Below, piece after piece: positions 8,380-12,663 of a stretch of 13,030 nt of DNA; position 1 is the stretch's first letter; the number at the start of each line of letters is the position of its first letter. Origin of the DNA: Flavobacteriaceae bacterium (lineage in GTDB: Bacteria > Bacteroidota > Bacteroidia > Flavobacteriales > Flavobacteriaceae); the NCBI GenBank assembly GCA_023301205.1, contig JALZVC010000202.1:1-13030 (forward strand), read 5' to 3'. The position numbers and the translations under genes are program-made. Under the pieces are notes generated by a model. The model was not told the DNA's origin, did not search any database, and worked only from the letters and a program-made list of their open reading frames with translations.

Positions 8380-9366
8380 TTAAGATAATAATTTTACTAC
8401 ATCTTTTGCAAAATAACTCACAATCATGGTAGCACCTGCTCTCTTGATACTCAAAATCTGTTCCATCATTACGGCATCGTGATCTAACCAGCCTTTCTCT
8501 GCCGCTGCTTTTAACATGGCATACTCGCCACTTACTTGATATACTGCTACAGGTACATCAACAATCTCGCTTATATCTCTAACAATGTCTAGATAACAAA
8601 GTCCTGGCTTTACCATCACAATGTCTGCACCTTCGTCGATATCCATGAGGGTTTCTTTCACGGCTTCTGCTCTATTAGCAGGATCCATCTGGTAGGTTTT
8701 TTTGTCTTTAGGTATGTTTTTTAAAGCTACAGGAGCGCTATCTAATGCGTCTCTAAAAGGGCCATAAAATGCAGAGGCATATTTAGCACTGTAACTCATA
8801 ATGCCTGTGTTATAAAAACCTTCTGCTTCAAGTAGGGTACGCATAGTAAGAATACGGCCGTCCATCATATCGCTAGGTGCTACAATATCTGCTCCTGCTT
8901 GTGCGTGGCTTAGTCCCATTTTTGCAAGAAAATCATTGGTTGGGTCATTGACAACCTCGCCGTTTGCAATAATCCCATCGTGACCATATTGCGAATATGG
9001 ATCTAAAGCTACATCTGTCATTACTACCATTTCTGGGCAGCAATCTTTAACTGTTTTTATAGCACGTTGCATTAAGCCGTCTGGATTTAGGGCTTCTTTA
9101 CCTGCATTGTCTTTCAAGTTATCTGGCACTTTTACAAAAAGCAGGACGCTTTTTAATCCCATAGCCCATAGTTCTTTTATTTCTGCGGAAAGCAAATCGA
9201 GACTAAAACGATAATAATTAGGCATCGATGCAATTTCTTCTTTCACGCCCTTTCCTTCCACGATAAATAGCGGTACAATAAAATCGTTAGGACTAACACT
9301 TGTCTCTCTAACGAGGCTTCTCATTGCTGCTGTGGTTCTTAATCTTCTGTTTCTTCTTAGTATCAT
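8380..9366 (-). CDS. hemB: Delta-aminolevulinic acid dehydratase (porphobilinogen synthase)
   Basis: A 328-residue cytoplasmic enzyme that condenses two 5-aminolevulinate molecules into porphobilinogen, an early common step of heme synthesis. Full length for the family. Both active-site lysines are present: Lys195 in SYSAKYASAFYGP and the Schiff-base Lys253 in MVKPG. The metal-site segment reads DVALDPYSQYGHDG (119-131), so the three cysteines that bind catalytic zinc in other HemB proteins are replaced by Ala120, Asp122 and Asp130. This marks the zinc-independent, magnesium-stimulated type as in Pseudomonas. The N-terminal arm (RRNRRLRTTAAMRSLVRET) needed for octamer assembly is intact. It lies 10 bases downstream of the YchJ-like gene and 11 bases upstream of the TlpA-like gene. 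Confidence 0.97.
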   Translation of the reverse strand: MILRRNRRLRTTAAMRSLVRETSVSPNDFIVPLFIVEGKGVKEEIASMPNYYRFSLDLLSAEIKELWAMGLKSVLLFVKVPDNLKDNAGKEALNPDGLMQRAIKTVKDCCPEMVVMTDVALDPYSQYGHDGIIANGEVVNDPTNDFLAKMGLSHAQAGADIVAPSDMMDGRILTMRTLLEAEGFYNTGIMSYSAKYASAFYGPFRDALDSAPVALKNIPKDKKTYQMDPANRAEAVKETLMDIDEGADIVMVKPGLCYLDIVRDISEIVDVPVAVYQVSGEYAMLKAAAEKGWLDHDAVMMEQILSIKRAGATMIVSYFAKDVVKLLS

Positions 9367-9376
9367 AGGCTAGTAT

Positions 9377-9763
9377 TTAGTCTGAAATATTAAAATCGTT
9401 ATTGGGTAAACCTAAGTAAAACCAACGGTTATTTTCTTTTACAAATTTAGAATTTTCACAAATAACATCTGTAACACCATTTTCAAAAAAGTAGGCGTTA
9501 AAACTTACGGTGTCTATAGTAGACTCTAATACTTCTAATTTTAGCCATTGCACAGATTTTGCCCACTTTACAATCGCTTTTTTGTCTTTTAAACGACGTG
9601 TACTTCTGTGGTGTGTTTGCATTAGATAATCGCCATTAGCTAAAACAAAAGCAGAGTAACGTGAGCGCATTAATTGCGCTGCTGTTTTAGTTTTACCTCC
9701 ATTTTTGTGGTAGACAGCACAGCAATTTTCATAGGTGTTATTTTCCCCGCAGTAGCAATTCAT
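9377..9763 (-). CDS. YchJ-family protein with N-terminal SEC-C motif
   Basis: A 128-residue protein of the YchJ (UPF0225) family. The N-terminal zinc-binding SEC-C motif is MNCYCGENNTYENCC with Cys3, Cys5, Cys14 and Cys15. The rest is an NTF2-like domain with the family signature AAQLMRSRYSAFVLAN (28-43) and YLMQTHHRSTRR (47-58). The C-terminal SEC-C motif present in E. coli YchJ is absent, and the protein is correspondingly shorter. The function of the family is not established. Only one base separates the hemF stop codon from its ATG (TAACATG), so translation is likely coupled to hemF. Confidence 0.9.
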   Translation of the reverse strand: MNCYCGENNTYENCCAVYHKNGGKTKTAAQLMRSRYSAFVLANGDYLMQTHHRSTRRLKDKKAIVKWAKSVQWLKLEVLESTIDTVSFNAYFFENGVTDVICENSKFVKENNRWFYLGLPNNDFNISD

Positions 9764-9764
9764 G

Positions 9765-11264
9765 TTAAACCCAATCTTTAGGCTCCATTAACACTTTTAA
9801 TAGCTTTTCTTCTTCACTGTCAGCTTCTGGTTTATGGTTATAAACCCACTGCACTTTTGGCGGCAAGCTCATTAAAATACTCTCAATGCGGCCATTGGTT
9901 TTTAATCCAAACAAGGTTCCTTTATCGTGTACAAGGTTAAACTCCACATAGCGTCCACGACGTATTTCTTGCCAGTCTTTTTGTGCTTTGGTAAAAGGTA
10001 GATTCATTCTTTTTTCTGCAATAGGGACGTAACCTTCTAAGAAGCTATTTCCTATTTCGGTTACAAAATTAAACCAATCTTGCATTTTCATCTCTTCTGT
10101 AACTTTACAGTAATCAAAAAAGAGTCCTCCAATACCACGAGCTTCATTGCGGTGCGGATTATAAAAATACTCGTCACAACGCGCCTTGTATTTTGGGTAA
10201 AACGCTGGGTTGTGTTTATCGCAAGCCGTTTTACAGATCTGATGAAAATGTCTCGCATCTTCTTCAAAAAGATAATAGGGAGTCAAATCTTGACCACCGC
10301 CAAACCATTGATCTACGATTTCGCCTTCTTGATTGTACATCTCAAAATAACGCCAGTTTGCATGCACTGTAGGCACCATTGGGTTTACAGGATGTAAAAC
10401 CAAACTTAAACCACACGCAAAAAAGTTAGCGTCTTTAACGCCAAAATACTGCTGCATACTCTCCGGTAATTTACCGTGTACTTCACTAATGTTTACGCCT
10501 CCTTTTTCAAAGACAGCGCCGTTTTCAATCACGCGCGTTCTACCGCCGCCGCCTTCTGGGCGATCCCAAAGATCTTCTTGAAATGTTGCTTTGCCGTCTA
10601 CTGCTTCTAGGCGAGAAGTGATTGTGTCTTGGAGATTGCGTATGTATGTTATAAACTGTTCTTTACATTTAATATCCTGTTTTAGACCTACAAGAAGGTC
10701 TGCGACAACGCCTTGTAGGTCTATGCCTAGGTCATCCTTATTAACTCCTACTTGTTTACTAGTAACTAATTTCATATTATCAATAGAATCAAATAATGTA
10801 AACGCTAGATCCTTATTCAATAAAAAAGAATCAGGTTGAGAGTCGCTTAAATAATGTCTGTACGATGAAAATCTTTCATGCTCTTTATTAACTTTTGGGT
10901 TGTTATGAATATAGCTAAACAAATTCGTGAAATATTTTTCATCTTCAATTAGTTTTCGCTTGTAATGCTTCTCAAATAAACTCCCAGTTCTATTTTCTTG
11001 AATATTAAAAGCTTTTGCATACGCATTAAATAAATTTGAAAAACCTTGAGTCACTCCTTTTTCGTCTGCAATTATTTCAACTAAAAAATGGTAATGGTTG
11101 TCCATTAAACAGAAGGCTAAAACAGAGATTTTATCTTTTAAATATTTATCAAAAAGACTTAAAAAGTATCTTTTATTCTCTTCCGATTTAAAAATAGGTG
11201 CACCATTAATACCACGATTATAGATATGATAATGATTGTTTTTGTCTATTTTTTCTAACTTCAT
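9765..11264 (-). CDS. hemF: Oxygen-dependent coproporphyrinogen III oxidase fused in frame to an N-terminal RAYT (HUH/Y1) transposase domain
   Basis: A 499-codon frame with two unrelated parts. Residues 1-140 are a REP-associated tyrosine transposase of the IS200-like Y1 superfamily: HYHIYNRGINGAPIF (11-25), the HUH pair in MDNHYHFLVE (His57, His59), RTGSLFEKHYKRK (92-104) and the likely nucleophile Tyr118 in YIHNNPKV; these look intact. Residues 141-199 are a linker, of which 182-194 are encoded by a REP palindrome. Residues 201-499 are complete HemF, which converts coproporphyrinogen III to protoporphyrinogen IX with O2: RPEGGGGRTRV (236-245), HANWRYFE (301-308), WFGGGQDLTPYY (320-331), RGIGGLFFDY (376-385) and RRGRYVEFNLVHD (435-447). 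No in-frame ATG, GTG or TTG lies at the normal HemF start; the nearest is Met164 (10775), which would give 336 residues. See findings for the base at 10665. HemF identity is very sure; the fused product is uncertain. Confidence 0.9.
   Translation of the reverse strand: MKLEKIDKNNHYHIYNRGINGAPIFKSEENKRYFLSLFDKYLKDKISVLAFCLMDNHYHFLVEIIADEKGVTQGFSNLFNAYAKAFNIQENRTGSLFEKHYKRKLIEDEKYFTNLFSYIHNNPKVNKEHERFSSYRHYLSDSQPDSFLLNKDLAFTLFDSIDNMKLVTSKQVGVNKDDLGIDLQGVVADLLVGLKQDIKCKEQFITYIRNLQDTITSRLEAVDGKATFQEDLWDRPEGGGGRTRVIENGAVFEKGGVNISEVHGKLPESMQQYFGVKDANFFACGLSLVLHPVNPMVPTVHANWRYFEMYNQEGEIVDQWFGGGQDLTPYYLFEEDARHFHQICKTACDKHNPAFYPKYKARCDEYFYNPHRNEARGIGGLFFDYCKVTEEMKMQDWFNFVTEIGNSFLEGYVPIAEKRMNLPFTKAQKDWQEIRRGRYVEFNLVHDKGTLFGLKTNGRIESILMSLPPKVQWVYNHKPEADSEEEKLLKVLMEPKDWV
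10684..10722. repeat. REP-like palindrome inside the fused reading frame
   Basis: Perfect 11-base arms AGACCTACAAG (10684-10694) and CTTGTAGGTCT (10712-10722) enclose 17 bases. A competing inner hairpin AGACCT/AGGTCT (10684-10689, 10696-10701) is also perfect. It lies between the transposase and HemF parts and encodes residues 182-194 of the fusion. Its left half matches 11282-11299 at 16 of 18 bases, so it is one of a pair flanking the transposase. Confidence 0.75.
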
Positions 11265-11283
11265 TTTTTGGTTTTTTTGTTAT

Positions 11284-11357
11284 ACCTACAAGGAGGTCTC
11301 CTTTGTCTACAACACCTTGCAAGATAATCGTACCTCGGGAAGACCTTGCAGGATAAT
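11284..11357. repeat. REP-like element upstream of the transposase part, with an internal direct repeat
   Basis: This fills most of the 95-base gap between the GNAT gene and the transposase start. ACCTACAAGGAGGTCT (11284-11299) corresponds to the left half of the copy at 10684, and 11309-11323 matches its right half at 12 of 15 bases. A direct repeat follows: ACCTTGCAAGATAAT (11314-11328) and ACCTTGCAGGATAAT (11343-11357), 14 of 15 bases the same. ACCTACAAGG can also pair with CCTTGCAGG (11344-11352). The layout resembles a BIME, a composite of REP units. Confidence 0.65.
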
Positions 11358-11359
11358 AG

Positions 11360-11887
11360 TTATTGTTTTCTTAATTCATATAATTCCATATCCATCGGTT
11401 TACTGTTGGGTGGTGTATATTCGTTTTTTAAGGTTTTGATAAATTTAAAACCACTATGTTGTGCCACTTTAATACTAGGGATATTAGTGTGATGCACAAT
11501 AATTTTAAGTAATTCTAAATCGTGATTTGCAAAAGCAAATGCAGAGAGCTCACTTACAGCTTGTGTCATCCAGCCTTTCCTCCCATAATTTGCATCAATA
11601 CAATAGGCAAATTCGCCTTCTTTTTTGTCCCAATCCAGTTCTTTAATATATACGAGACCGATAACTTGTGTCGTTACCTTTAGTGAAAACAAGAACTGTT
11701 TTTTAGTTTTTATGTCTTCGGAAATGTTAGCTATAAAATCCCTTGAGTCTTCTGCGTTTCTATTTGCTGCGAGGGTACCGGGAAAATAGTTTTGGAGAGC
11801 TTCGGCATTTTTGTTCATTAAACTAGTAATTCCATTTGCATCGTCTGCCTTAACCCAATCGATATTAAAGCCGTCACACTGTATCAT
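11360..11887 (-). CDS. GNAT-family N-acetyltransferase (RimJ/RimL-like)
   Basis: A 175-residue cytoplasmic acetyltransferase of the Acetyltransf_3 type. The acetyl-CoA binding loop is in YGRKGWMTQAV (101-111), and the NIPSIKVAQHSGFKFIKTLK stretch (135-154) is the usual end of the fold. Strand-forming segments FLFSLKV and QVIGLVYIKEL precede it. The family includes ribosomal-protein N-terminal acetylases and small-molecule acetylases, so the substrate is open. Its ATG overlaps the TGA of the EI24 gene by four bases (ATGA), so translation is coupled. The REP block and the transposase-hemF frame follow downstream. Confidence 0.92.
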   Translation of the reverse strand: MIQCDGFNIDWVKADDANGITSLMNKNAEALQNYFPGTLAANRNAEDSRDFIANISEDIKTKKQFLFSLKVTTQVIGLVYIKELDWDKKEGEFAYCIDANYGRKGWMTQAVSELSAFAFANHDLELLKIIVHHTNIPSIKVAQHSGFKFIKTLKNEYTPPNSKPMDMELYELRKQ

Positions 11888-12663
11888 GCCTCTAAAATTT
11901 CCGAAGCTGAATTCTCCAGGTTTAATTTTTCAGAATCTTTTATAATCTTAACCGTTTCTGCAGTTGAAGCCGTTACCGAAAGGGGTAAAACTAGAATTAT
12001 ACCAATGACTGGAATAAATAGCATCGCCATAAAGAGAATACCGTTTCCTATTGCAATACCGCTATGCGAGCGCACAAATTTTACACTCTCATCATATTTA
12101 AAATGGCGCTCTAGTGTGAAATCCATATTACCAAAACCTGCATAATAAGACTGTACTAAAAAGATACCTATCGTTGCAAAAATATTTACCACGGGGATAA
12201 AGCTGAGTATTAGTAAGGGGATTGTAAAAAGCAATTCGAACAGTAAATTACGAACGTTTATGCGTACGCCACGCCACAACTGCTCTGAGTTTGTTGTATC
12301 TCTATGTATGTGATTTGCACCTAATAAATGTTTTTCTATTTTTTCTGAAACGGGACTCATAAATGGCGCACTTAATGCCATCACAATGTGCTTATAAAAA
12401 ATAAGACCGATTGCAAGAATAACAATTGCACCTAGCACTTCACCTATGGCATGAAAGGTCTCTGATCCCCATTCCCAGAACCAAATCTTGTCAAGTAAAT
12501 TAGCCACATTGTCACTAAGGCTCCAAGCTAAAAATCCAATAATAGCAGCCGTTAAAAAACTAATAAGTACAGGAACGCCAAAATATTTCCAGAGCTTTAA
12601 TTGGCTGATCAACTTAAAAGTGCCGCCGTACGCTTTTATTGCTTTATAGATGTTTTTTATCAC
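11884..12663 (-). CDS. EI24 domain-containing (CysZ-like) integral membrane protein
   Basis: A 259-residue membrane protein with hydrophobic segments at about 28-48, 71-97, 140-172 (probably a hairpin) and 203-231. The stretch MALSAPFMSPVSEKIEKHLLG (95-115) is a typical EI24/CysZ landmark. CysZ proteins are sulfate transporters, but flavobacterial relatives of this kind have no proven substrate and no cysteine genes are seen here. Eleven bases separate it from the DUF6973-like gene upstream, and it overlaps the GNAT gene by four bases, so it belongs to the same transcript. Its place in a heme gene cluster is suggestive but does not prove a role there. Confidence 0.88.
   Translation of the reverse strand: MIKNIYKAIKAYGGTFKLISQLKLWKYFGVPVLISFLTAAIIGFLAWSLSDNVANLLDKIWFWEWGSETFHAIGEVLGAIVILAIGLIFYKHIVMALSAPFMSPVSEKIEKHLLGANHIHRDTTNSEQLWRGVRINVRNLLFELLFTIPLLILSFIPVVNIFATIGIFLVQSYYAGFGNMDFTLERHFKYDESVKFVRSHSGIAIGNGILFMAMLFIPVIGIILVLPLSVTASTAETVKIIKDSEKLNLENSASEILEA

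Follow-up and report, generated by a model that had tools for sequence, protein, structure and literature searches.

The window (the whole stretch of DNA analysed, 13,030 nt long) carries on its minus strand a single open reading frame that joins a RAYT (TnpAREP) transposase domain to HemF, the oxygen-dependent coproporphyrinogen III oxidase, by way of a REP palindrome. The features of the locus are the following.

8380..9366, minus strand: downstream heme gene, presumably hemB (open reading frame list, synteny)
9765..11264, minus strand: RAYT-REP-HemF fusion frame of 499 codons with an ATG start (open reading frame list, Pfam)
9765..10664, minus strand: HemF, oxygen-dependent coproporphyrinogen III oxidase, residues 201-499 and the stop codon (Pfam, NCBIfam)
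10665..10754, minus strand: linker, residues 171-200 (AlphaFold2, pLDDT below 50 at residues 182-198)
10666..10668, minus strand: native hemF ATG, out of frame (comparison with Patiriisocius marinus, locus L031)
10683..10723, minus strand: right-hand REP palindrome, read in frame as DLQGVVADLLVGL (DLQG...LLVGL) (palindrome search)
10755..11264, minus strand: RAYT / TnpAREP domain, residues 1-170, with His57 and His59 of the HUH motif and Tyr118 (Pfam Y1_Tnp, structure match 4er8)
11281..11352, minus strand: left-hand REP region, 5' of the RAYT start (repeat comparison, outer limit set by eye)
11360..11887, minus strand: acetyltransferase-like gene, the upstream neighbour of hemF, presumed to be a 'GNAT', as the Pfam domains found in its P0121 relative suggest (open reading frame list, synteny)
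11884..12663, minus strand: conserved neighbour, presumably 'EI24' (synteny)

From its ATG to its stop codon the fusion frame contains zero internal stops, and the plus-strand reading of the same positions is riddled with them. In the encoded protein Pfam places Y1_Tnp at residues 9-122 (25.6 bits against a cut-off of 23) and Coprogen_oxidas at residues 205-498 (445 bits), and the NCBIfam equivalog model for HemF scores 421.5 bits against a cut-off of 297. The sole RAYT-type NCBIfam model matched is REP_Tyr_transpos, whose 40.4 bits lie under its curated cut-off of 80. AlphaFold2, supplied with an alignment of the window protein and 79 database proteins out of 139 fused ones collected, models the RAYT domain (about residues 1-170) and most of HemF confidently; besides the linker, residues 449-458 have pLDDT below 50. 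When this model was used in a fold search, HemF structures came out on top, and the best transposase in the PDB was 4er8, a RAYT with a REP hairpin. An earlier note made from the sequence alone had reported an uninterrupted 499-codon RAYT-HemF frame with His57, His59 and Tyr118 in its transposase part; the frame is borne out, on the minus strand, by the open reading frames, Pfam and NCBIfam, and all three residues are present. Judged by sequence, the enzyme part resembles an ordinary HemF in having a complete catalytic domain above curated cut-offs, but differs from one in its approximately 200 additional N-terminal residues and in lacking an in-frame start of its own.

The RAYT gene of the window is flanked by two inverted REPs. 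The right-hand one has 12-nt arms (10683-10694 and 10712-10723) that are 100% complementary and enclose a spacer of 17 nt. The left-hand one is related to it in both orientations, as positions 11280-11299 are 90% identical to 10682-10701, and positions 11281-11300 are 80% complementary to 10704-10723. Such a REP-flanked gene is the layout given for RAYT / TnpAREP in PMC2817692. Most of the 43 fused loci that we inspected by eye, without scoring, have REP-like palindromes on both sides. As for the GT[AG]G tetranucleotide at the foot of RAYT-associated REPs, the REP of the window (CTTGTAGGTCT) contains a GTAG, which by eye is absent from the same place in the GTCAGG and GCTAGG types of its relatives. 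The earlier note had overlooked that a translated REP palindrome forms part of the linker. The REP-RAYT-REP cassette sits between the GNAT-like gene and hemF, with hemB further downstream, and in many relatives the GNAT gene ends a few to about 15 nt from an empty hemF start. A small Cys-rich frame, presumably of YchJ/SEC-C type by its look, lies between hemF and hemB on the minus strand (9377-9763).

Comparison with Patiriisocius marinus (ATTAAATGAAAGAACAG) reveals an additional T in the window (ATTAAATGTAAAGAACAG) at position 10665, with the result that the native hemF ATG reads ATG TAA and HemF enters the RAYT frame. The normal HemF start offers no in-frame ATG, GTG or TTG, as had been noted before, and the nearest such codon is Met164, inside the RAYT part, at a position where many relatives by eye have F. 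The earlier conclusion that an in-frame HemF needs either the fusion or Met164 holds, but it missed that the native ATG survives out of frame. Were the T at 10665 absent, the RAYT frame would close on a TGA that overlaps the hemF ATG, as it does in genome G359 (locus L123). We infer that the fusion in the window may have passed through an ATGA-overlap intermediate of this kind.

The window comes from an incomplete assembly (298 contigs, 59.8% complete), and in the protein database its fusion protein has a single member sequence, placed on two contigs of which the longer measures 43,271 bases. An assembly or sequencing artefact, for which this fragmentation might speak, has a negligible probability in our estimation, as the same architecture occurs in many genomes, some of them single-contig, and the window protein itself occurs on two contigs. 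The lone extra T could still be an error, and the fusion in the window would then be an ATGA overlap. In a whole-protein search, the best 120 of 8000 scored proteins include the window's own, and the other 119 cover 98-100% of the fusion at 57-73% identity. When only the RAYT part was compared with proteins 274-873 residues long, 96 matched, and 90 of these, the window's own included, carry PF01218 (HemF). The occurrence of both domains in one protein, for which the earlier note had proposed a homologue search, extends over nearly the full span of the fusion in 17 of 397 Flavobacteriaceae family genomes (own included) and is found in 26 of the 68 genomes of genus g176. A RAYT-only search of the same 397 genomes gave no further strong match in a frame of fusion size, and weak matches in long frames in G256 and G278. 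Three of seven genomes of genus g187 are fused (the hemF of G496 is cut by a contig end), as is Aequorivita viscosa (one of 21 loci), and none of the window's nine other congeners with a HemF match is. Single-contig genomes with the fusion include G189, G377, G280, G200 and G157 in the family set and G459 in g176. Recurrence on this scale indicates that the fusion is more than chance and leads us to reject a one-off chimera or misassembly. The chimera, regarded as unusual in the earlier note, is a genuine in-frame RAYT-HemF; it is no isolated oddity, as it recurs across Flavobacteriaceae.

Some of these proteins bear the JGI name 'coproporphyrinogen III oxidase/REP element-mobilizing transposase RayT', and annotation pipelines thus recognise the fusion. 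Searches of open-licence PMC papers brought up none on a RAYT-HemF fusion. A survey of TnpAREP proteins discarded a few unexpectedly long ones as fusions or annotation errors, according to PMC6006769.

The native hemF start codon is lost in 24 of 43 fused loci and kept in the other 19; this count omits L050 (partial), L092, L020 and L003, which duplicate L001, L091 and L031, as well as L033 and L077, whose HemF is that of L005 and L036. At the 24 lost starts we find ATC (10), ATA (5), GTC (2), GTT (2), and GTA, TGT, CTC, TTT and ACC once each. As a lost start codon can travel with the cassette, the 24 losses are not independent. Among the fused proteins in register, 67 of 154 have Met at the native hemF start (157 were checked, 154 aligned well, and loci and database entries overlap). 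Of 104 unfused hemF loci, 103 have a start codon at most 6 codons away, and the one exception, L186, carries an in-frame REP-like remnant.

These counts bear on whether the fusion exists on paper only, with HemF initiated internally (at Met164 in the window) or severed from RAYT after translation. In 23 of the 24 loci without the native start, the closest in-frame ATG, GTG or TTG lies 21-95 codons upstream, at varying places (in L063, the remaining one, a GTG is 3 codons away), and the next ATG is at least 137 codons off in 14 of the 24; Met164, moreover, is placed inside the RAYT part and by eye is often replaced by F. The retention of the native start in 19 of the 43 loci, the predicted disorder of the linker, and the RAYT frames of L123 and L124, which end at or just before the hemF start, are what such a reading would lead one to expect, and overall we consider it unlikely. 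On sequence grounds, one RAYT-HemF polypeptide would be made in cells.

Several loci have an intermediate appearance. In L123 (G359) the RAYT frame reads through the REP and ends at the hemF start as an ATGA overlap, and in L124 (G194) it reads through the REP to a stop 5 nt before the hemF ATG; both are possible pre-fusion steps. REP-like remnants before hemF in L170, L179, L186 and L176 are possible scars of lost fusions. Of these, the unfused L170 and L179 combine a REP remnant with ATC at the old hemF start and, 6 codons before it, a new ATG, a layout such as a past fusion would leave.

We ranked the RAYTs of the 397 genomes by similarity to that of the window. Each of the 26 top RAYTs (E up to 2.2e-40) is located upstream of hemF and on the same strand, at distances from fused to about 2.7 kb (17 fused and 9 not), and those ranked 27-31 have no hemF within 2.5-3.5 kb. 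In g176, no RAYT was detected upstream of hemF at E 0.01 in 40 unfused loci (mostly 1.8 kb examined, much less for L189); these represent 40 of the 42 unfused genomes, G369 being covered as L087 and G469, whose hemF is cut by the contig end, being omitted. On the RAYT tree the hemF-linked RAYTs cluster, with 25 changes of state compared with 88 in shuffles; the tree omits five database fusions missed by the first motif, which were included in later comparisons. Monophyly of the hemF-linked RAYTs is unsupported (12 of the 25 changes are forced), in part owing to database 'standalone' RAYTs of which some adjoin hemF or are partial; the 'standalone' entries P0150, P0198 and P0257 have the same first 150 residues as L083, L088 and L069. 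For 156 hemF-linked RAYTs, RAYT and HemF distances correlate with r 0.40, a value reached in 0 of 500 permutations, with conflicts in both directions. The window and P0003 share 77% identity in RAYT and in HemF alike.

The clustering and the correlation of distances speak for a single ancient fusion followed by vertical descent and many losses, as does the description of RAYT as a single-copy, vertically inherited, domesticated gene in PMC8049555. On a HemF tree of 86 loci (built without L050, L092, L020, L003, L033 and L077) the fused state changes at least 13 times, with 9 changes forced by well-supported branches ('fused'), and on the HemF tree of g176 it again changes at least 13 times, with 7 forced ('unfused'). 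The g176 RAYTs fall into types A and B, initially defined from their likeness to the window and from their REPs, which are 64-100% identical to their own reference and 49-60% to the other; among the 26 fused g176 loci the type switches at least 8 times. HemF proteins that are nearly the same may have unlike RAYTs in front of them (L141 and L151, and likewise L138 and L154, with HemF 98.3% and RAYT 54% identical; P0006 and P0084, with HemF 94% and RAYT 57% identical). Insertions occupy the same point before hemF and are patchily present among close relatives; L146 (fused) and L182 (empty) are separated by a HemF distance of only 0.014. The empty sites in close relatives of fused species are clean and have a start codon, and flanks match up to the cassette on either side in L146/L182 (aligned) and L133/L178 (read side by side).

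Synonymous divergence (dS) bears on the age of the cassette. Between L134 and L137 it is 0.74 for EI24, 0.51 for GNAT, 0.03 for RAYT and 0.88 for HemF, and between L150 and L153 it is 2.83, 1.31, 0.29 and 0.85, respectively, with a step in similarity on both sides. The cassette is younger than both of its flanks in such pairs, and RAYT dS far under the HemF dS of the same frame contradicts vertical inheritance of RAYT in several pairs, for which a single ancient, vertically inherited fusion is rejected. Taken together with the clean empty sites and the near-identical HemFs behind unlike RAYTs (as in P0006/P0084), this makes that scenario very improbable in general. Movement of the cassette as a unit between species, into the same position, is supported for some pairs by these sequence comparisons.

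How the cassette moves is less certain. It is possible, and we regard it as a serious though somewhat less probable account, that RAYT does not transpose itself, and that DNA uptake and homologous recombination at conserved flanks copy hemF alleles with or without RAYT. The tract shared by L144 and L147 extends into GNAT, and in L135 and L136 a diverged HemF stands beside a nearly identical left flank, both as recombination would produce. The young cassettes of L134 and L137 are, furthermore, already start-less (ATA and ATC), indicating that the first hemF bases travelled along. According to PMC6006769, the distribution of TnpAREP is patchy, horizontal transfers and loss are favoured, and autonomous mobility is without formal evidence. 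On the other hand, the tract shared by L134 and L137 runs from the left REP, before which the sequences are unlike, to the first tens of bases of hemF, so that its breaks fall at the REP and close to the hemF start, and L150/L153 has its steps on both sides. Passive spread alone also leaves the unlike RAYTs beside near-identical hemF genes (L141/L151) unexplained, although repeated allele exchange could explain them. Upstream of its fused RAYT, L145 (G448) retains what is left of another RAYT N-terminus, as would be expected had one cassette taken the place of an older one.

Of 141 fused RAYTs, 139 retain the catalytic residues H57, H59 and Y118 together, as do 117 of 117 standalone RAYTs in the same alignment. 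The RAYTs with an altered residue, L065 (G166) with Q57 and P0002 with D118, are probably inactive, and they indicate that HemF does not need RAYT catalysis. In the pairs listed with RAYT dS of at least 0.29, dN/dS is 0.075-0.34 for RAYT, mostly near 0.1, and 0.03-0.1 for HemF; in the closest pairs it reaches 0.5 for RAYT, from few changes. This purifying selection may in part just keep the front of the fusion foldable. Since HemF keeps the fusion frame open, the openness of RAYT is no evidence of RAYT function.

REPs are dispersed in fused genomes, as counted in genus g176 only. The median number per genome is 13 in fused (n=26) and 1 in unfused genomes (n=42; p 5e-11), and the contrast persists after subtraction of 4 locus REPs per fused genome (p 1.7e-8). 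The excess is found in both halves of the g176 tree (18 fused against 7, p 0.0015; 8 against 33, p 0.012), uncorrected for relatedness, and REP counts track the tree. In six phylogenetically independent pairs on well-supported branches the association between REPs and fusion is not significant (same direction 1.8, opposite 0.1 on average), and spreading of REPs by fused RAYTs is for this reason kept as suggestive. REP type and RAYT type match only moderately, and the counts include the locus's own REPs. Higher REPIN numbers are described for E. coli genomes with a RAYT gene in PMC8049555. Fused RAYTs may still act on REPs. A role in anti-phage defence was considered and dropped, as PADLOC gave no match.

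We consider it probable that these loci reflect a REP-RAYT-REP cassette tied to hemF that is read through its 3' REP into the enzyme, after which the hemF start decays, and that passes between species. A cassette of the hemF-tied lineage would occupy the short gap before hemF, and its RAYT frame, if stop-free, would cross the 3' REP, translated as a flexible linker, and continue into hemF, so that ribosomes starting from the RAYT ATG would make a RAYT-HemF protein. With this path in place, hemF's own start would be free to decay, or might be lost in one step, as with the extra T in the window. Once the start is gone, a host that drops RAYT would lose HemF as well, unless a new start arises, and the cassette could pass as a unit into the same hemF position of another species. 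Dependence of HemF on the cassette may be what keeps RAYT in place. A strict addiction reading is weakened by the finding of full-length oxygen-independent HemN above cut-off in 7 of 7 fused genomes tested (1-2 contigs), which also calls into question the term 'essential' that the earlier note applied to HemF; the window's own incomplete assembly has HemN matches below cut-off only.

A more specific version, which we put forward tentatively and consider somewhat doubtful, is a homing RAYT: a lineage of single-strand HUH transposases that would recognise the hemF start, insert there with its REPs, capture translation by read-through of the REP and become hard to lose as the start decays. Homing elements include inteins and homing endonuclease genes. 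With them the hemF RAYT shares a fixed position at a conserved gene, a patchy distribution among relatives, an age below that of its flanks in some pairs and a reading frame in common with a host protein. It differs from them in having neither an endonuclease with a known hemF target nor splicing, and cleavage of a target is hypothetical.

Other likenesses are to known REP-associated systems. With REPtrons, as presented in PMC2817692 and PMC6006769, the locus shares the HUH-Y1 domain, a single gene between REPs, REPs elsewhere in the genome (g176 only) and the match to 4er8, whereas the hemF RAYT is bound to one locus, is translated through its 3' REP into an enzyme and, in some pairs, is transferred between species as a cassette. 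TnpAREP genes of subclass 2.4 contain REPs with the frame intact and are present in Bacteroidetes, according to PMC6006769, and thus also translate REP DNA in frame. In that subclass the HUH and Tyr motifs generally enclose the REP, while in the hemF RAYT it lies past the catalytic core and links it to the enzyme.

The chimera is real and recurs among marine flavobacteria; the kind of element is known, but its setting is new and its dynamics are unexpected. It suggests that a mobile gene may raise the cost of its own loss when a metabolic enzyme comes to rely on it for a start codon. In the literature, RAYTs are portrayed as domesticated single-copy genes without proven mobility of their own. 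The hemF sites of related species may be empty, occupied by one cassette or another, or scar-like, and such natural sets make movement, target choice and loss of RAYT testable.

RAYTs with other partners were also observed. Among the six matches of the RAYT-part search that remain beside the HemF fusions, two are RAYT-GNAT proteins and another starts with a formyltransferase domain. In P0121 (371 aa) and P0137 (394 aa) RAYT is joined through a REP-like linker to a GNAT acetyltransferase, and P0126 (416 aa), P0123 (322 aa) and P0145 (426 aa) are RAYTs with REP-like tails or unrelated partners, the formyltransferase protein being one of them. The GNAT part of P0121 resembles, by eye, the gene adjoining hemF in the window.
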